Shown here piece after piece: positions 30,446 to 37,981 of a stretch of 64,000 bases of DNA. The DNA is taken from NCBI GenBank assembly GCA_016342685.1, contig JAEINU010000005.1:1-64000 (forward strand). The letters run 5' to 3'. The stretch comes from Bacteroidales bacterium. Its GTDB lineage: Bacteria > Bacteroidota > Bacteroidia > Bacteroidales > UBA12077. Positions within the stretch are counted from its first letter, which is position 1. Each line of letters begins with the position of its first letter. The notes under the pieces were generated by a model that was given only the letters and a program-made list of their open reading frames with translations, did not search any database and had not been told where the DNA came from. A program made the position numbers and the translations under genes.

Positions 30446-31198
30446 ATGATTAAGGATATGGGGCTTTTTTATCATATTGGAAGATATTTTTTATTGTTAA
30501 AGAAGGTTTTTGCTAAACCTGAAAAACACAGTGTTTATTATAAAGAGACATTAAAGGAAATTCAAAAGCTTGGAATTAATTCGATGGGGATCGTTGCTAT
30601 AATTTCTTTGTTTATGGGTGCAGTTATCACTATTCAGACCGCTTATAATACTGAAAATCCACTTTTGCCTACTTATTTAATTGGACTAGGTGCAAGAGAT
30701 TCGATTTTGCTTGAGTTTTCTTCAACAATTGTGGCGTTAATCTTAGCTGGAAAAATTGGATCTAATATCGCTTCCGAAATAGGAACTATGAGAGTTACGG
30801 AACAGATTGATGCTTTGGAGATTATGGGTGTAAACTCAGCAAGTTTTTTGATATTACCAAAAATCGTTGCTTCAGTTGTATTTGCGCCATTTTTAACATT
30901 GTTGAGTATGTTTATTGGAATAGCTGGTGGATGGCTAGCAGGTACTGCTGCGGGAGTTGTAACAACTGAAAATTATGTATATGGAATACAATACGCGTTT
31001 AATCCATTTTATATTACATATTCGGTTATTAAGATTGTGGTTTTCGCATTTTTAATAACAACAATCTCTGCATATCACGGTTATAATTCTTTTGGAGGAT
31101 CACTCGAAGTTGGTAGATCAAGTACAAAGGCTGTTGTGCATAGCAGTATTTTTATTTTACTTTTTAATTTAATATTAACACAATTACTTTTATCGTGA
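30446..31198 (+). CDS. MlaE-type ABC transporter permease
   Basis: Inner-membrane permease of the MlaE/Ttg2B family, moving phospholipids between membranes. Five to six helices; signatures are GAVITIQTAYN, LAGKIGSNIASEIGTMRVTEQIDAL (typical GxxxAxEIGTMRxxEQIDAL) and SAYHGYNSFGG. 250 residues from 30446, 246 from the alternative ATG 30458 (MGLFYHIGRY), which better fits homologs and the promoter. It overlaps the ATPase gene by 4 nt. No MlaD-type substrate-binding gene is adjacent. Confidence 0.9.
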   Translation: MIKDMGLFYHIGRYFLLLKKVFAKPEKHSVYYKETLKEIQKLGINSMGIVAIISLFMGAVITIQTAYNTENPLLPTYLIGLGARDSILLEFSSTIVALILAGKIGSNIASEIGTMRVTEQIDALEIMGVNSASFLILPKIVASVVFAPFLTLLSMFIGIAGGWLAGTAAGVVTTENYVYGIQYAFNPFYITYSVIKIVVFAFLITTISAYHGYNSFGGSLEVGRSSTKAVVHSSIFILLFNLILTQLLLS

Positions 31199-31953
31199 TA
31201 GAAGTTAAAAACATATCGAAATCTTTTGATCAGGTTTCTGTTTTAAAAAATGTAAGTATTCTTTTTGAACAAGGAAAAACTAATTTAATTATTGGACAGA
31301 GTGGTTCTGGTAAGACTGTATTGCTTAAGTCGATTGTGGGTTTGCATGATGTTGACGAAGGTAAAATATTTTTTGACGATACGGTGTTTAATGAACTCAA
31401 TTTTAAGGATAAAAAGGAAATGAGGAAGCAAATTGGAATGCTTTTTCAAGGAGGTGCCTTATTTGATTCTTCAACAGTTGAAGAGAACGTTATTTATCCA
31501 TTGGAAATGTTCACAAACCTTTCCCCTTCAGATAAAAGAGAACGTGCAAATGAATGCTTAAAAAGGGTTAATATAATTAATGTAAATAATCTTTATCCTT
31601 CTGAAATAAGTGGTGGTATGCAAAAGCGCGTTGCTATTGCGAGGGCAATTGCTTTAAATCCGCGTTATTTGTTTTGTGATGAGCCAAATTCTGGGCTTGA
31701 TCCTCGAACGGCAATTGTAATCGATAACTTAATAAAGGAGATTACAGAGGAGTATAACATGACAACAATAGTTAATACTCATGATATGAATTCTGTAATG
31801 GAAATAGGCGATAAAGTGGTATTTATATATAAGGGAGAAAAGTGGTGGGAAGGCACAAAAGATGATATATTTGATACAGAAAACGAAGAGTTGAATAGTT
31901 TTATTTTTGCTTCTAAGTTGTCTCAAAAAATACGTGACCTAAAGAATTCCTAA
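31195..31953 (+). CDS. MlaF-type ABC transporter ATP-binding protein
   Basis: ATPase partner of the preceding permease. Walker A GQSGSGKT, Q-loop MLFQGGALFDSST (MlaF-like FQxGALFDS), signature SGGMQKR and Walker B LFCDEPNSGLDP, with the SGLDP form common to MlaF. 252 residues. The GTG start lies inside the permease stop (overlap GTGATAG-type), meaning translational coupling. The last 4 nt overlap the end of the convergent Crp/Fnr gene. Confidence 0.92.
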   Translation: MIEVKNISKSFDQVSVLKNVSILFEQGKTNLIIGQSGSGKTVLLKSIVGLHDVDEGKIFFDDTVFNELNFKDKKEMRKQIGMLFQGGALFDSSTVEENVIYPLEMFTNLSPSDKRERANECLKRVNIINVNNLYPSEISGGMQKRVAIARAIALNPRYLFCDEPNSGLDPRTAIVIDNLIKEITEEYNMTTIVNTHDMNSVMEIGDKVVFIYKGEKWWEGTKDDIFDTENEELNSFIFASKLSQKIRDLKNS

Positions 31954-32645
31954 CCAAATTCATATATTCTTTCAAGCTTTTTAATATCAACTATTTCAAT
32001 ATTCTTACCTTCGATTTGAATTAGTTTGTCTTTTCTAAATTCGGATAAAACGCGAATTACATTTTCTGTGCTCATGTCAATTAATTCGGCTACTTCTTTT
32101 CTACTAATTGGAAGATTAAACTTACTTGAATCATAAATGTGTTTTGAGAAGAACAATAGAATGTAAGCAATTCGACCTCTTAACTGACGTGTATTAATAT
32201 CGATTCTTGTTTTTATAACCGAATCGGAAACAGAGCTAATCTTTTCAAAAAAATCTAAAGCAAATATCCCATTTGTTTTTATAAAATCTCTAATAACACT
32301 TAAATCAACAAAACAAACAATAGAGTCTTCTAAAGCAGTAATAGAATAAATATGATTCTTATTAGAGAATATGCTAAGGAGACCAATAAAATCTCTTGGC
32401 TTTGCTATGCTTATAATATGTTCTTTTGTATTAACCTCTGTTTTATATAGTTTAACTAGACCATTTTGAAGGTACATAAAGGAAGAAATCTCATCGCCTT
32501 CCAAACAGATTTTCTCTCCCTTGCGAAAGAATTTTTCTACTTTCTTGCTATTAATCTTTTTTAGTTCTTCAGCTGATAAGTTTTTGAATGCCCATGATCT
32601 ATACACGCATTCCTTGCAGTGGTTGACTTTATGAGATAATTCCAT
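31950..32645 (-). CDS. Crp/Fnr family transcriptional regulator
   Basis: A 231-residue regulator: N-terminal HCKEC (Cys10, Cys13), a cyclic-nucleotide-type beta-roll (about 25-125), dimer helix, and C-terminal winged HTH (ISRKEVAELIDMSTENVIRVL). Cys111 in ALEDSIVC matches the place of Cys122 in E. coli FNR, and Cys10/Cys13 match Cys20/Cys23; the third N-terminal ligand (Cys29) is Ala here, and Cys47 is extra. Oxygen, redox or sulfur sensing is thus possible but unproven. It is divergent from the sulfide oxidation genes, with palindromic Fnr-type boxes between them that it most likely binds. Confidence 0.88.
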   Translation of the reverse strand: MELSHKVNHCKECVYRSWAFKNLSAEELKKINSKKVEKFFRKGEKICLEGDEISSFMYLQNGLVKLYKTEVNTKEHIISIAKPRDFIGLLSIFSNKNHIYSITALEDSIVCFVDLSVIRDFIKTNGIFALDFFEKISSVSDSVIKTRIDINTRQLRGRIAYILLFFSKHIYDSSKFNLPISRKEVAELIDMSTENVIRVLSEFRKDKLIQIEGKNIEIVDIKKLERIYEFG

Positions 32646-32668
32646 CTTTTAAATACTTATGTAAGTTG

Positions 32669-32696
32669 TGATATATATCATTAATGATATATATCA
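32669..32696. promoter_or_regulatory. Perfect 28-bp palindrome of two Fnr-type boxes
   Basis: TGATATATATCA occurs at 32669-32680 and again at 32685-32696 with TTAA between; the whole is its own reverse complement. Each box has the FNR core TGATnnnnATCA. It lies 24 nt before the regulator start and about 62 nt upstream of the likely start of the sulfide:quinone reductase transcript, a distance typical for activation by Fnr-type proteins. Confidence 0.75.
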
Positions 32697-32726
32697 TAAT
32701 ATGTAAGAATGTAAATACGTTAATAT

Positions 32727-32745
32727 CTGTTATTTTTGTAACAGT
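32727..32745 (+). promoter_or_regulatory. -7 box of the sulfide oxidation operon, inside a small palindrome
   Basis: TATTTTTG (32731-32738) matches TAnnTTTG fully; it lies inside an inverted repeat CTGTTA...TAACAG (32727-32745). There is no -33 TTG at a good distance, which fits a promoter that depends on an activator bound at 32669-32696. Confidence 0.5.
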
Positions 32746-32787
32746 AAAACTAATTATTACATAAAAATAGTATAAAAATCATCTAAA

Positions 32788-34017
32788 ATGAAAAAGATTC
32801 TAATATTAGGAGCTGGAACAGGCGGAACAATAATGGCTAATAAGCTACGAAAGTCTCTGGATAGGGATGAGTGGGATATTACAATTGTTGATAAACATAA
32901 AACACATTTTTACCAACCGGGTTTTTTATTTATTCCTTTCGGTATATATAATAAGCAAGATGTAATAAAACCAAAAGCTAATTTTATTCCTGCTGGAGTA
33001 AATATCATTTATAGCGATGTCGACAAGATTGTTGGTGAGGAGAATAAGGTAATATTGGACGGTGGGAAAGTTTTAAACTATGATTTTCTTATAGTTGCTA
33101 CAGGAACAAGGGTTGATCCATCGGAAACGCCTGGTTTAAAAGAAGAGTTGTGGCATAAAGAAATATTTGATTTTTACACTGTTGAAGGTGCAGTTGCATT
33201 GCGAGATTTCTTCGAAACATGGCAGGGTGGTCGATTAGTAATGAGTATTGCAGAACTTCCGTTTAAATGTCCTGTAGCTCCGTTGGAATTTGTTTTCTTA
33301 GCCGATGAATATTTTACTAAGGTAGGAATTCGTGATAAAGTAGATATTACCTACGTTACGCCACTACCTGGAGCTTTTACAAAGCCAAAAGCGACACAAA
33401 TGCTTGGTGAGCTTTTAAAGGAAAAGAATATTACAGTTATTCCCGATTTTTACCTAGAAAGTGTAGATAATAAAGCGAAGAAAATTAAATCGTACGACGG
33501 ACATGAAATTCCATTTGATGTTTTAACTATTGTTCCTGTAAATAAGGGTGATGATATGATTGAACGAAGTGGAATGGGTGATGATTTAAATTTTGTCCCT
33601 ACCGATAAGCATACTTTAAGATCTGAAAAATACGAAAATGTATTTGTTTTAGGCGATGCATCAAATATTCCAACATCGAAAGCGGGATCTGTTGTTCATT
33701 TTGCTGCTGACGTATTATTCGATAATATGATGTGTGCTATTAAAGGACGAGAGTTGAGAGCGAAATTCGATGGTCATGCAAATTGCTATATCGAAACGGG
33801 TTTTGGTAAAGGATCTTTAATTGATTTTAATTATGATACTGAGCCACTTCCGGGAACTTATCCATTACCAGGAGTTGGCCCATTTGGATTATTGCAAAAT
33901 ACTAAGATGAATCACTATGGTAAAGTAATTTTCCGATGGATATACTGGCATATGTTATTGAAAGGAAAAGAACTTCCAATTGAGAATGAGATGTCAATGG
34001 CAGGAAAGAAAAGATAA
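32788..34017 (+). CDS. Sulfide:quinone oxidoreductase-type FAD protein
   Basis: A 409-residue flavoprotein of the SQR family that oxidises sulfide and passes electrons to the quinone pool at the membrane. Seen: FAD-binding LILGAGTGGT at the N-terminus, VATGTRVDP, and VLGDASN for the second FAD contact. Cys161 (FKCPVAP) and Cys333 (HANC) fall where SQRs have their two essential redox cysteines (Cys160 and Cys356 in A. ferrooxidans); the third, near 128, is absent. First gene of a four-gene unit with sulfur-relay proteins, which supports sulfide as substrate. Confidence 0.88.
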   Translation: MKKILILGAGTGGTIMANKLRKSLDRDEWDITIVDKHKTHFYQPGFLFIPFGIYNKQDVIKPKANFIPAGVNIIYSDVDKIVGEENKVILDGGKVLNYDFLIVATGTRVDPSETPGLKEELWHKEIFDFYTVEGAVALRDFFETWQGGRLVMSIAELPFKCPVAPLEFVFLADEYFTKVGIRDKVDITYVTPLPGAFTKPKATQMLGELLKEKNITVIPDFYLESVDNKAKKIKSYDGHEIPFDVLTIVPVNKGDDMIERSGMGDDLNFVPTDKHTLRSEKYENVFVLGDASNIPTSKAGSVVHFAADVLFDNMMCAIKGRELRAKFDGHANCYIETGFGKGSLIDFNYDTEPLPGTYPLPGVGPFGLLQNTKMNHYGKVIFRWIYWHMLLKGKELPIENEMSMAGKKR

Positions 34018-34037
34018 TAATTCAAAATTGTTGGAAA

Positions 34038-34721
34038 ATGGAAGTTAAATCAGACAATGTGCAGGAACAAATAAATCAAATCAATCAAAAGCTTGATCTT
34101 GTGCTTCATTATGTTAATGAGCAAAGATTAAAAAGCGAAACGATTGAAGATTTAGTTTCTGATGTTTCAATTATTAGCAAAGATGCTTTTGCGAGTGTTG
34201 TTGATGAACTCGACACACAAGGTATAGAGCTCAATATAAACGATATCAAATTGCTTGCTTTTAAACTTGTTAGGAATGTAAATAATTTCTCTCAAGTAAT
34301 GGATATGTTTGAAAGCGTTACCGATTTATTAAAGGACGCAGGTCCGATTATTAATGAAGTTGGTATTGATTTTACTCATAAACTGCATGATTTTGAGCAA
34401 AAAGGATATTTTGAATTCTTTAAAGAATTAACAAATATCATGGATAATATTATTTCAAGCTATTCTCCTGAGGATGTAAGAGCTTTATCCGATAATGTTG
34501 TTACTATTCTTGATACTGTTAAGAACTTAACTCAACCTGATATGTTAAATGCGTTGAATAATGCATTAAATATATTTAAAAATCTTGATACTGAAAATAT
34601 TCAAGAATATTCATTGTGGAGAGTGTTCCGTGAAATGAATACTCCTGAAATGAAACGCGGAATTGGATTTATAATGACATTTTTAAAGAACCTGTCGAAA
34701 GATTCGATAGCAAGTAAATAA
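34038..34721 (+). CDS. DUF1641 protein
   Basis: 227 residues, mostly helical, no signal peptide. A central ESVTDLLKDAGPIINEVGIDF and later RALSDNVVTILDTVKNLTQPDML fit DUF1641 (YjgD-like), a family often next to SQR or formate dehydrogenase genes. The C-terminus MNTPEMKRGIGFIMTFLKNL is also typical. It has no cysteine motif or enzyme signature. It lies 20 nt behind the SQR gene. Probably an accessory or scaffold for the flavoprotein; this is inferred from context alone. Confidence 0.82.
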   Translation: MEVKSDNVQEQINQINQKLDLVLHYVNEQRLKSETIEDLVSDVSIISKDAFASVVDELDTQGIELNINDIKLLAFKLVRNVNNFSQVMDMFESVTDLLKDAGPIINEVGIDFTHKLHDFEQKGYFEFFKELTNIMDNIISSYSPEDVRALSDNVVTILDTVKNLTQPDMLNALNNALNIFKNLDTENIQEYSLWRVFREMNTPEMKRGIGFIMTFLKNLSKDSIASK

Positions 34722-34749
34722 AAAATCAAACAATTTAAAAATTAATATT

Positions 34750-35055
34750 ATGGCACAAAAAACAATAGCAGGTGTAAACCTAGAGATTTCTGAAGATGGG
34801 TATTTAGCAGATTCATCATTGTGGACTGAAGAAATTGCAAAGGAAATTGCAAAGGAAGAGAATATAGAATTAACTGAAAAGCATTTTGAGGTTATTAAAT
34901 TTATCCGAGAAAATGCGGAATCCGGATTAACAATTCGTAAAGTTGGTAAATCTGGAATAGTAGATATTAAAGGATTCTATGATTTATTTCCTGGAGGTCC
35001 ATTAAAAATATCCACAAAGATTGCAGGTGTTAATAAACCATCAAGTTGTGTTTAA
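34750..35055 (+). CDS. DsrC/TusE-like sulfur carrier, single C-terminal Cys
   Basis: A 101-residue DsrC/TusE fold: EDGYLADSSLWTEEIA, then LTEKHFEVIKFIRE, and DLFPGGPLKIS ending in KPSSCV. The penultimate Cys100 is the conserved thiol (Cys A) that carries persulfide. The second Cys of true DsrC, eleven residues earlier, is Thr89, so the protein cannot form the DsrC disulfide/trisulfide. It therefore resembles TusE or a persulfide acceptor rather than a substrate of DsrAB, and no dsrAB is in the window. It sits between DUF1641 and DsrE2. Confidence 0.88.
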   Translation: MAQKTIAGVNLEISEDGYLADSSLWTEEIAKEIAKEENIELTEKHFEVIKFIRENAESGLTIRKVGKSGIVDIKGFYDLFPGGPLKISTKIAGVNKPSSCV

Positions 35056-35070
35056 TTAAAACTAAAAACG

Positions 35071-35574
35071 ATGACTGATAAAAAAGATACTCAAGTTAAA
35101 AAAGTTGCAATCATCTGTGCAAAAGCTGCTCTTGAAGATGTATATGCAGCTTTAGTAATGGCCAATGGAGCTGTAATGGAAGGAATGGAAGCAAAAGTAT
35201 TCTTTACCTTCTTTGGTTTAGATGCTATTACTAAGAAACAAATGAATAAACTTCACACGTCGACCGTAGGTAATCCAGGTATGCGTATGCCTGGTGGATT
35301 GCCATTTCCAACTCTTTTGGGTGCAATTCCTGGAGTAGAGGCTGGTGTTTCATCTATGATGAAAAATACAATGGAGAAACTTGATATTCCTCCTGTAGAT
35401 GAATTCTTAGACATGATTACTGCTGGTGGAGGTGAGATTTATGCTTGTAAATTAGCTGTTGATATGTTTAAATTAAGAAAAGAAGATTTAAGCGATCATG
35501 TAATTGATATTATTACTATTGGTGATTTTTATGCAATGGCTGGTGGCGATGGATCACAAGTAATTTTTACTTAA
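35071..35574 (+). CDS. DsrE/DsrF-like sulfur transfer protein (DsrE2 type)
   Basis: 167 residues of the DsrE/F/H fold. IICAKAALEDVYAALVMANGAV opens the protein, and Cys126 in EIYACKLAVDMF is the expected persulfide-carrying Cys; Cys16 is a second thiol. The insertion around 68-100 with GMRMPGGLPFP is typical of the DsrE2-like group. It is the last gene of the sulfide unit, 15 nt behind the DsrC-like gene, and likely hands sulfane sulfur from SQR to that carrier or takes it on. Direction of transfer is not shown by sequence. Confidence 0.85.
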   Translation: MTDKKDTQVKKVAIICAKAALEDVYAALVMANGAVMEGMEAKVFFTFFGLDAITKKQMNKLHTSTVGNPGMRMPGGLPFPTLLGAIPGVEAGVSSMMKNTMEKLDIPPVDEFLDMITAGGGEIYACKLAVDMFKLRKEDLSDHVIDIITIGDFYAMAGGDGSQVIFT

Positions 35575-35592
35575 TAAATCGAAATATATAAT

Positions 35593-35626
35593 AAAAAAGC
35601 TCACCACCTTAAAGTGGGCTTTTTTT
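35593..35626. terminator. Terminator after the sulfide operon
   Basis: AAAAAAGCtCAC and GTGgGCTTTTTT pair; strong A- and T-runs on either side allow use in both directions. It overlaps the end of the convergent gene at 35625. Confidence 0.75.
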
Positions 35627-36326
35627 ATTCAATTATTTTTATGCGTTTGAATTCTTTTATATAAGTTTCTTTATCTTCAAGATCAGAGTTTAGAAAATCT
35701 TTGTATAATGTTTCAACCTTTTCTGTATTATTTTTATTGTTGTAGATCGAGATAAGGTAATAATAGGAAAGTCCATGGATTTGCGATTGAATGCTAATTT
35801 TTCCTTGTAATACCTTCTCGAAAAATGGAATTGCTTCGGCAAATTCTTCTTTTTGATATAGTTCAAATCCTTTCTCGAAAGCAACTATTTTCTGATTATG
35901 GTTGTTATCTAAAATTATTCCATTAAACGAAAAACAGGCGTTATTGCAGTTTTCAACTAGATCTAGAAATTTTATATGCCCTGAAATTTTTGGGAAAATT
36001 AGTTGAAATTCTAAAACCTCTCCATAACTTTTAAATTCATATTGATTAGGACACGTTGGGATGTTTTCGGAGCGAATAAGCTGATATGTTTCACTTCCTT
36101 TAGAGTCTTTTATAAAAATGTTTTTATCTGCACAAAACCACCCGCCATTGTCTCGTTTGTTTGTAACCTTTAATGAGATAATTGTATGTTCTGAATTTAT
36201 TTCGATTTGTAAAATCTCCATTTCAGGATGACTTTGTTTTCCTGCTATAGGATTTACATAGATCTGTGCTTTAAGACTAGATGTGCTTATAAGTATTACT
36301 ATTAAAATATATAAGAAGTTTTTCAT
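35625..36326 (-). CDS. Exported hypothetical protein with TPR-like C-terminus
   Basis: 233 residues with a signal peptide (hydrophobic 4-18, ending LKAQ). The first half is beta-rich and has four cysteines (in GGWFCADKN, IPTCPNQ and NCNNACFSF). The second half (about 150-225) is helical with TPR-like periodicity: FEKGFELYQKEEFAEAIPFFEKVL. I do not recognise a family. It is monocistronic, between the sulfide operon and the OmpP1 gene. A periplasmic place is inferred from the signal peptide. Confidence 0.72.
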   Translation of the reverse strand: MKNFLYILIVILISTSSLKAQIYVNPIAGKQSHPEMEILQIEINSEHTIISLKVTNKRDNGGWFCADKNIFIKDSKGSETYQLIRSENIPTCPNQYEFKSYGEVLEFQLIFPKISGHIKFLDLVENCNNACFSFNGIILDNNHNQKIVAFEKGFELYQKEEFAEAIPFFEKVLQGKISIQSQIHGLSYYYLISIYNNKNNTEKVETLYKDFLNSDLEDKETYIKEFKRIKIIE

Positions 36327-36341
36327 AATAATGAATTAAAA

Positions 36342-36368
36342 ATGCCCTTCAAGATACTCGAAGGGCAT
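36342..36368 (-). terminator. Terminator of the OmpP1/FadL gene
   Basis: ATGCCCTTC (36342-36350) and GAAGGGCAT (36360-36368) pair perfectly around 9 nt; on the minus strand the stem is followed by TTTTTAATT. Confidence 0.75.
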
Positions 36369-36391
36369 GTAAATATCAAATTATAAATAGT

Positions 36392-37981
36392 TTATTCTGA
36401 TTTCTTACCAAATTTAAAATCTAAACCTATAGCAATAAAGAAATTATCTCTGTTATAAGTTTCTGTAACGTTTTCAATATTTGCAGGACTTCCAGCAACT
36501 GCATAATCAAATGATTTGGTGTCTTCTACATATTTAGTATAAGCAATAGCTAAATTAACATCAATCATTGGTGTAATTGAATATGCTCCACCAGCTCCAT
36601 AAGTGTTAGAAGATATTTTATAATCTATATCTGTTTGGAATTCTTCAGATACTCCCGACTGAGCTCTTAAGTAACCTGCACTTACCAGTAATTTATCATT
36701 AACATTATACTGTAATCCTAATGCCCATTCCCAATAATTCTCATCAATGATTTGCTCATTATCCATATGCACGCCTCCAACTTTTTTACCATAATCAGCA
36801 GCTTTATCAAAATAATAATGCAATCCTGTTGACGCTAAAAATTTCTCGGTAATTTTATAATCTACACCAATTGTTAGTAATGCAGGCATATCATTTCTAT
36901 TAATTTCTCCATCTGGATATTTATATAGAGGAGTTAATCCGTCATAGCTATAAAGAAATCCTTTTCCATCATCCACATTGTTTTCTAATTCAATTTTGGT
37001 TCTAAATTCGTATTTTAAACCAATATTGAATTTATCGTTTGGACTAATGTTTACACCAATAATAGGAGTAATACCTGTCCCGGTTTGCTCTATATCAGCT
37101 GTCTGATCTTCAAGTATTGTAGCTTTTTGATCCATTCCTATTGCTCCCATTCCAAATGCTTGAGCAGCTTGAGCATTAGTCATGCCTGCTTGGTATAGTC
37201 CAAGACCTGTAAGTGTTGCAATTCCTACTGGATCTGCAAAAGCATCATCAGCAACTATGAAACCTCCAGATATAGCCCCGGCGATAGTAGCTGAAGTAGC
37301 ATCAAGTTGGTCGCTAACACCACTAACAAAAGTGCTAGCAGGTATTGTTGTTCCACCTAAATCAACAGTTATATCTTTTAAATAGCCCTCGTAAGTGTTT
37401 TTTGCAGTCACATATCTACCTCCAAGATATACAGATATCATATCATTTATTTCGTACGATACACCAGCTTGTATACCCCAGAAAAGAGATGATCCTTCTA
37501 AATATCCCTTCATATTGTAGCCTGTTACACCTTGCGCAGCAAAAGCAGGATATAAATCAGCCACAGCCATTTCAAATGATGGTAGACCATTTCCAAATTC
37601 AGCAGATCCTCCGCCTCCAATGATATTAACACCCAAAGAAAATGCAAATTTTCCAGTGTTATATGATGCATATACACTTGGCATTACAGGAACAGTTACA
37701 GATCCTTCATAATCTACAGGTGAATTATTTAGGTACTGATAATCTGAATTGATTTCCCTATTTTGAAATAGCGTTTGGCTATTAAGAGAAATAAAGAATC
37801 CTTCTCCAAGTTTAGTTAAACCTGCAGGGTTATAGAATACAGCATCTATATCTGTTGAAGCATCTCGTGCAAACATTCGCACCCAAGATGCACTTTGGTT
37901 GGTATTATGAACAATACCTCCCGAAAAAGAGAAAAAGGGTAAACTTAGTATTGCTACTAAAAGTAAAGTTATTCTTTTCAT
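36392..37981 (-). CDS. OmpP1/FadL/TodX family outer-membrane channel
   Basis: A 529-residue outer-membrane beta-barrel with a signal peptide (1-20, FFSFSGG) and the family's NTNQSASWVRMFARDASTDIDAVFYNPAGL region (NPAGLTKLG is the anchor). FadL-type channels pass hydrophobic substrates such as fatty acids or alkanes. A stretch near 215-300 is unusually rich in Ala and Gly (IAGAISGGF, TNAQAAQAFGMGAIGM) and probably forms the plug or hatch region. The barrel end FFIAIGLDFKFGKKSE has the expected aromatic strand. It stands alone with its own terminator. Substrate not predictable. Confidence 0.88.
   Translation of the reverse strand: MKRITLLLVAILSLPFFSFSGGIVHNTNQSASWVRMFARDASTDIDAVFYNPAGLTKLGEGFFISLNSQTLFQNREINSDYQYLNNSPVDYEGSVTVPVMPSVYASYNTGKFAFSLGVNIIGGGGSAEFGNGLPSFEMAVADLYPAFAAQGVTGYNMKGYLEGSSLFWGIQAGVSYEINDMISVYLGGRYVTAKNTYEGYLKDITVDLGGTTIPASTFVSGVSDQLDATSATIAGAISGGFIVADDAFADPVGIATLTGLGLYQAGMTNAQAAQAFGMGAIGMDQKATILEDQTADIEQTGTGITPIIGVNISPNDKFNIGLKYEFRTKIELENNVDDGKGFLYSYDGLTPLYKYPDGEINRNDMPALLTIGVDYKITEKFLASTGLHYYFDKAADYGKKVGGVHMDNEQIIDENYWEWALGLQYNVNDKLLVSAGYLRAQSGVSEEFQTDIDYKISSNTYGAGGAYSITPMIDVNLAIAYTKYVEDTKSFDYAVAGSPANIENVTETYNRDNFFIAIGLDFKFGKKSE

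Follow-up and report, generated by a model that had tools for sequence, protein, structure and literature searches.

A conserved gene unit of sulfide:quinone oxidoreductase with DsrC- and DsrE2-like proteins in Bacteroidota and its putative role in sulfide oxidation

The presence of a gene for sulfide:quinone oxidoreductase (SQR) does not by itself reveal what becomes of the sulfur. This question is raised by a locus in a 64,000-nucleotide stretch of a Bacteroidales bacterium (positions 1 to 64,000 of contig JAEINU010000005.1, assembly GCA_016342685.1; hereafter the window), where an SQR gene is followed by genes for a DUF1641 protein, a DsrC/TusE-family protein and a DsrE2-like protein. Do these genes belong together, and what could they do with the sulfur? 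We think it somewhat probable (about 0.55) that they form a conserved Bacteroidota sulfide-oxidation unit in which SQR, with DUF1641 where present, would reduce menaquinone with sulfide and the sulfur would pass to the DsrE2-like protein and then to DsrC. If this is true, the fixed SQR-DsrC-DsrE2 unit sets out, for a large group of heterotrophs, a defined and testable transfer of sulfur from one named cysteine to the next. The genes of the locus are as follows.

32788..34017, plus strand: type III-like SQR, 409 amino acids; expected catalytic residues Cys161 and Cys333, cysteine rather than selenocysteine
34038..34721, plus strand: DUF1641 protein, 227 amino acids; predicted to be all-helical and distantly related to ForE1/YjgD
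34750..35055, plus strand: DsrC/TusE-family protein, 101 amino acids; a single cysteine, Cys100 (CysA), with Thr89 at the CysB position
35071..35574, plus strand: DsrE2-like protein, 167 amino acids; Cys126 invariant, Cys16 in most homologues
31950..32645, minus strand: Crp/Fnr-family regulator, 231 amino acids, with cNMP-binding and HTH_Crp_2 domains; Cys10, Cys13, Cys47 and Cys111 in the window

Layout and distribution of the unit

The four plus-strand genes are separated by only 20, 28 and 15 nt, and the regulator gene diverges from SQR across a gap of 142 nt. These coordinates bear out the compact layout described in an earlier note on this DNA, and family scans agree with the names that it gave to the four proteins. 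The SQR scored 653.6 bits against NCBIfam NF049943, "type III sulfide quinone reductase, selenoprotein subtype" (cut-off 525), and its closest solved structures in a PDB search were SQOR entries. DUF1641 scored 31.3 bits against PF07849 (cut-off 21), and the DsrE2-like protein 95.8 bits against the Pfam family DsrE_2, PF13686 (cut-off 25). DsrC scored 85.9 bits against PF04358 (cut-off 24.9) and 76.8 against TIGR03342, the TusE/DsrC/DsvC subfamily (cut-off 53.5), and lay below the cut-off of the TusE equivalog NF008562 (61.4 vs 191).

Conservation was assessed in two samples. For the close relatives, GTDB genome contigs were scanned with the SQR alignment A1, and the best 80 of at least 579 confirmed relatives, at least 70% identical and biased to near kin, were kept. 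By title, these 80 are all Bacteroidota or a subgroup thereof, except three metagenome-assembled genomes (MAGs) titled Chlorobiota, and they include Draconibacterium, Prolixibacter, Maribellus, Labilibacter, Carboxylicivirga, Flavobacteriaceae and Saprospiraceae. DUF1641 was found downstream of SQR in 80/80, DsrC in 79/80 and DsrE2 in 76/80, and each locus without the full set (L047, L066, L086, L110) ends at a contig end. A divergent Crp homologue was present in 68/80; two of the 12 misses (L042, L046) start at a contig start.

The second sample comprised 395 Bacteroidota genomes, with SQR over cut-off in 95 and DsrC in 103. Family f53, taken to be the green sulfur bacteria, accounts for 57 of the 95 SQR genomes; the remaining 38 are the basis of all counts out of 38 given below. 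DsrC adjoins SQR in every one of these 38 genomes, with match ends 36-836 bp apart, and DsrC over cut-off outside f53 occurs without SQR in only three further genomes, so that 38 of 41 also carry SQR. DsrE2 was present in all 26 unit genomes checked. The earlier note had set beforehand a gene order confined to close relatives as grounds for dropping the idea; the order instead recurs across the phylum, and the gene arrangement is therefore not due to chance. Distance matrices of the unit proteins correlate at r 0.78-0.87, values that shared ancestry alone could yield.

The arrangement in f53 is different. Six f53 SQR loci, read with flanks of 1.5 kb, held no match to DsrC, DUF1641 or DsrE2. 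One f53 genome (G219) carries DsrC 1.7 kb beyond SQR, together with two NIR_SIR proteins, in line with DsrAB, and in some others (e.g., G259, G255, G235) DsrC lies 2 to 4 kb from SQR by coordinates. Three side observations concern DsrC. The genomes with DsrC over cut-off and no SQR (L202-L204; G415, G218 and G427) all belong to family f68, and only G415 has DsrA over cut-off. In G317, the DsrC match was under cut-off. In G063, which has no DsrA match, a second DsrC gene lies away from the unit (L208, C1:1926000-1938000).

No description of an SQR-DsrC-DsrE2(-DUF1641) unit was found in the literature searched, a search that left most subscription journals outside, and the term sqr was not found in the available part of a paper on Marinilabiliales and sulfate reducers (PMC10128000). 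Since the individual parts are known, we file the combined gene unit as a variant of SQR systems.

Conserved cysteines and candidate sulfur acceptors

Cysteines were counted at 103 loci, mostly from the close-relative set, in which SQR, DsrC and DsrE2 were all long enough; five duplicate loci and short fragments had been dropped beforehand. Four positions were invariant in 103/103 loci: C161 and C333 of SQR, C100 (CysA) of DsrC and C126 of DsrE2. The CysB position of DsrC was never cysteine (0/103), being occupied by Ser in 68, Thr in 18 and Ala in 17 loci; one f53 genome (L205), by comparison, encodes in its dsr cluster a DsrC with both CysA and CysB. DsrC proteins with two cysteines perform disulfide or trisulfide chemistry in the DsrAB pathway, and a DsrC in which CysB is never cysteine should therefore not do so. 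Judged by sequence, a CysA-only DsrC can carry a persulfide in the manner of TusE. Lacking CysB, the protein looks like a TusE-style carrier, and a role as partner of DsrAB was rejected on this ground and on the lack of DsrA over cut-off in the 38 genomes.

The named subtype of NF049943 has selenocysteine in an HxxU motif, according to a table in the accessible portion of PMC13188914. The corresponding motif of the window SQR is HANC, with Cys333 in place of selenocysteine. A selenoprotein SQR was rejected, given this cysteine codon and because all 96 matches over cut-off, from 95 genomes, are free of in-frame stops. The window protein therefore resembles type III SQR (nearest solved structures human SQOR, e.g., 8dhk and 6oi5) in its whole-length family match and in both expected redox cysteines, and differs from the named subtype in carrying cysteine and in being encoded with DsrC, DsrE2-like and DUF1641 genes.

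On the proposed route, SQR would take two electrons from sulfide via Cys161, Cys333 and flavin adenine dinucleotide. It would sit on the membrane, probably at the inner face, because the partner proteins show no export signal by eye. In the part of PMC13293266 available, the active site of the type III SQR of cable bacteria is placed in the periplasm, and our inner-face placement therefore stays tentative. Residues 330-409 of the AlphaFold SQR model have a predicted local distance difference test score (pLDDT) under 50, and the model therefore gave no guide to the membrane face. Cys126 of the DsrE2-like protein would accept the sulfane sulfur from SQR as a protein persulfide and would probably hand it to Cys100, the sole cysteine of DsrC; these proteins may thereby stand in for the small-molecule sulfur acceptor of other SQRs. 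Electrons from menaquinone would go on to an acceptor, and the source genome carries cytochrome bd.

Two known systems resemble this relay. In the reverse Dsr pathway of purple and green sulfur bacteria (TusA-DsrEFH-DsrC-DsrAB), a DsrE-family protein and then DsrC likewise act as sulfur carriers, whereas here DsrA is lacking over cut-off, DsrC has no CysB and one DsrE2-like protein replaces DsrEFH. The Escherichia coli TusBCDE relay also combines a CysA-only DsrC-family protein with a DsrE-family protein; the present unit, in contrast, is tied to SQR, and its DsrC lies under the TusE equivalog cut-off.

What might lie beyond DsrC was addressed with three markers. DsrA (TIGR02064) was over cut-off in 0/38 unit genomes, the source genome included, with weaker superfamily matches in 8/38; this search took in 41 genomes including the three of f68, where G415 was over cut-off. 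SoxB (TIGR04486) was over cut-off in 0/38, with weaker matches in 23/38. TusA was over cut-off in two, the source genome and G246. The earlier note had described the unit as standing without DsrAB, sHdr or Sox proteins, which agrees with these counts for the markers DsrA and SoxB, no genome-wide search aimed at sHdr having been made, although further sulfur genes are found elsewhere in the source genome. These form a cluster on contig 15 (L197, C15:45000-62000; L224:185-1237) with TusA at two places, a YeeE-type transporter, four rhodanese proteins, two DsrE2-like proteins, FlpD and two HdrA/QmoA-like flavoproteins, to which a porin-like protein, a small HTH-like protein and an HdrC/QmoC-like membrane protein can be added by eye. 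The cluster also has a divergent Crp/Fnr gene, whose product is 33% identical to the window's regulator, and as a whole it is similar to the YTD clusters treated in the accessible part of PMC13293266. As a general sulfur sink it was rejected, because TusA is over cut-off in only 2/38 genomes. A separate observation concerns G350, where a SoxB-like metallophosphatase (C1:1096585-1097853; 253 bits vs the SoxB cut-off of 550) is encoded directly upstream of a three-gene unit, to the left of SQR in L135.

DUF1641 and the two forms of the unit

The distance between SQR and DsrC is bimodal in the 38 genomes, 36-125 bp in 28 and 732-836 bp in 10, and all 10 wide-gap genomes, the window's included, carry DUF1641. 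SQR-DsrC-DsrE2 is therefore the core and DUF1641 an added part, which corrects the earlier view of DUF1641 as a regular member, since 28/38 genomes have SQR-DsrC without it. A phylogeny of 58 SQRs (36 from four-gene units, 16 from three-gene units and 6 from f53) requires the four-gene label to change three times, and the starred branches force at least two changes.

Within the phylum sample, Pfam DUF1641 was detected in 20/395 genomes, and 20/20 adjoin an SQR-family gene (12/12 in the loci read, the other 8 from coordinates). Nine of these genes lie in the present unit and 11 beside a distant SQR-family gene, with DUF1641 preceding SQR in 10 of the latter. At least one divergent copy (G063) escapes the Pfam model, which among 14 control genomes also matches Bacillus subtilis, Haloferax and Sulfolobus. 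A profile of 34 DUF1641 sequences from the unit (A2) matches ForE1 of B. subtilis (PDB 8rqz, 8rr0, 9gzq) at E 1.1e-6 over 119 profile positions (104-222), exceeding the 39-position Pfam core. ForE is described, in the part of PMC8808070 available, as the partner that enables the B. subtilis formate dehydrogenase to use menaquinone, and ForC1 without ForE1 shows no formate:menadione activity. By analogy, DUF1641 may be a partner subunit of SQR that aids menaquinone binding and reduction. In both cases, DUF1641 is encoded beside a redox enzyme that reduces, or here would reduce, menaquinone, but the neighbour here, a putative complex partner, is the flavoprotein SQR rather than an enzyme with molybdenum bis-pyranopterin guanine dinucleotide (Mo-bisPGD). 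If this holds, the consistent adjacency to SQR would assign a specific partner and role to a hitherto uncharacterised domain. Two length classes of the DUF1641 gene product, about 190 and 227 amino acids, occur within one genus (L004-L019 and L029), with 50-61% and 81-86% identity to the window's protein, respectively.

Haloarchaeal plasmids are an independent case of a sulfur carrier paired with SQR and DUF1641. Of six SQR-bearing plasmids inspected, selected among 229 matching plasmid records, three haloarchaeal ones carry TusA-SQR-DUF1641 and a fourth rhodanese-SQR-DUF1641, and no DUF1641 is annotated next to SQR on the Chlorohelix (TusA-SQR) and Rubrobacter plasmids. The haloarchaeal loci (e.g., Halomicrobium LC1Hm, Natrinema) share with the present unit the adjacency of carrier, SQR and DUF1641; they differ in that the carrier is TusA or rhodanese and SQR is only ~30-35% identical to the window's. 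No DsrC or DsrE2 is annotated in the stretches read.

A contrast between the two forms emerged from G216, a genome outside the 38, in which an MBL-rhodanese protein is encoded near a DUF1641-SQR pair. Among solved structures, 3r2u and 3tp9 are nearest to it and ETHE1 ranks lower, and none of the 25 NCBIfam families shown was matched at its cut-off; from its sequence, we infer a persulfide dioxygenase of the MBL-rhodanese kind. The MBL part of this protein (226 amino acids) was searched in the 38 unit genomes and G216. At E <= 1e-15, a homologue was present in 25/28 three-gene and 0/10 four-gene genomes (Fisher p 6e-7), at E <= 1e-30 in 23/28 and 0/10 (p 6e-6), both thresholds having been picked after the table was seen. 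Counted by family, positive if any member is, the homologue was present in 11/12 three-gene and 0/6 four-gene families (p 4e-4), which corrects for kinship only in part. At E <= 0.001, the wide MBL fold was matched in 36/38 genomes. Two homologues, the G216 and G350 proteins, were read whole. In G244, one in-frame TAA is recorded within the best match (L240, C1:1482184-1482861).

The inverse pattern of DUF1641 and the dioxygenase homologue fits an oxygen-independent role that the four-gene form may have, and could serve as a metagenome marker for oxygen-dependent and oxygen-independent sulfide oxidisers. In the available part of PMC12345210, type III SQR outnumbers the other SQR types in Bohai Sea sediments, and 114 Bacteroidota MAGs are reported to carry type III persulfide dioxygenases, a picture in keeping with the three-gene form.

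The linked regulator, alternative explanations and flanking genes

Two FNR-box-like palindromes lie in the gap between the regulator and SQR genes.

32669..32680, no strand assigned: TGATATATATCA, copy 1
32685..32696, no strand assigned: TGATATATATCA, copy 2, 16 bp from copy 1

Both boxes are perfect palindromes. Among 73 distinct Crp-SQR gaps of 40-500 nt from the window's clade (76 minus three duplicates), the relaxed palindrome TGA[TC]N4[AG]TCA was present in 65 (mean 1.29 and maximum 5 in 200 shuffles) and the strict TGAT-N4-ATCA type in 61. Paired boxes 16 or 17 bp apart occurred in 33/73 gaps and in none of the shuffles. A promoter and terminator scan gave counts close to those of shuffles.

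E. coli FNR has four cysteine ligands, three N-terminal and one central. In 78 regulator homologues, Cys13 and Cys111 were present in 78 and Cys10 in 77; over six cysteine positions tallied, 65 regulators had four or five cysteines and 13 had three. The set C8, C10, C13, C32 and C111 was found in 45/78 and the window's pattern, C10, C13, C47 and C111, in 20/78. This pattern could fit an FNR-like sensor, but the ligands are not constant, and the protein may instead sense thiols or persulfides. In the window's clade, the regulator would act on the palindromes of the shared promoter and may tie expression to anoxia or sulfide.

Several results weigh against the sulfide-oxidation relay proposed here. 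DsrA, SoxB and TusA provided no general acceptor for DsrC sulfur in the 38 genomes. The DsrE2-like protein falls under the cut-off of the DsrE2 equivalog NF047629 (103.4 vs 210), for which reason "DsrE2-like" is the correct wording, and its Cys16 is present at 76/103 loci and missing at 27. As DUF1641 is missing from most units, SQR can work without it; as the B. subtilis DUF1641 partner is formate dehydrogenase, SQR is not the sole natural partner. The all-helical AlphaFold model of DUF1641 is weak (pLDDT 72.9, predicted TM score 0.33), and Foldseek with this model returned no match at E <= 0.001, ForE1 included. Finally, the claim of the earlier note that the unit has its own Crp/Fnr regulator holds in the window's clade but not in the other families read: no homologue was detected at E <= 1e-3 by the other 29 phylum-sample loci (1.5 kb flanks), nor in seven longer other-family loci (L207, L209-L212, L214, L216).

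Alternative explanations differ mainly in where they send the sulfur. The carriers may deliver it to a persulfide dioxygenase in the three-gene form and to another acceptor, such as an HdrA/Qmo-like complex, in the four-gene form. The split of MBL homologues between the two forms and the TusA/YeeE/DsrE2/HdrA-like genes on contig 15 point this way, but the dioxygenase and contig-15 genes lie outside the operon, the rarity of TusA leaves the contig-15 cluster no general sink, and the split rests on E-value lines set after the fact, two homologues read whole and a search that covered dioxygenases of MBL build. We regard this division by oxygen as possible, and hold it tentatively. Slightly more doubtful is an extended version of our own proposal, according to which SQR-DUF1641 would be a two-subunit, menaquinone-specific sulfide oxidase with obligatory protein acceptors, DsrE2 and then the CysB-less DsrC. 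It would offer an oxygen-independent alternative to the pair of SQR and persulfide dioxygenase, persulfidated DsrC would be the cell's sulfur currency, and DUF1641 would be a general quinone-coupling subunit of SQR in Bacteria and Archaea.

A role in detoxification and sulfur supply appears unlikely. Here, SQR would remove toxic sulfide, DsrE2 and DsrC would feed part of the sulfur to tRNA thiolation and cofactors, and the bulk would leave as polysulfide or S0. E. coli TusE feeds sulfur to biosynthesis such as tRNA thiolation, and both the CysA-only DsrC, like TusE, and the absence of DsrA and SoxB over cut-off agree with such a role; the near confinement of non-f53 DsrC to SQR genomes is, however, unlike a housekeeping thiolation factor, and its score is far below the TusE equivalog cut-off. 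We consider it improbable that DsrC is a sensor or regulator that reports SQR flux instead of carrying bulk sulfur, of the CysB-less kind called RspA. Its single cysteine and the linked regulator gene in the window's clade would suit this role, but DsrC and DsrE2 are retained in units of other families, whose flanks showed no homologue of that regulator. The relay from SQR through DsrE2 to DsrC thus remains our preferred explanation.

Of the two flanks of the unit (window positions 30446-31953 and 35625-37981), one holds MlaE/MlaF-type transporter genes, which most of the genus and some other families share (e.g., L025, L095, L097, L105). The other holds a FadL-type porin, which was seen in a few members of the genus only.

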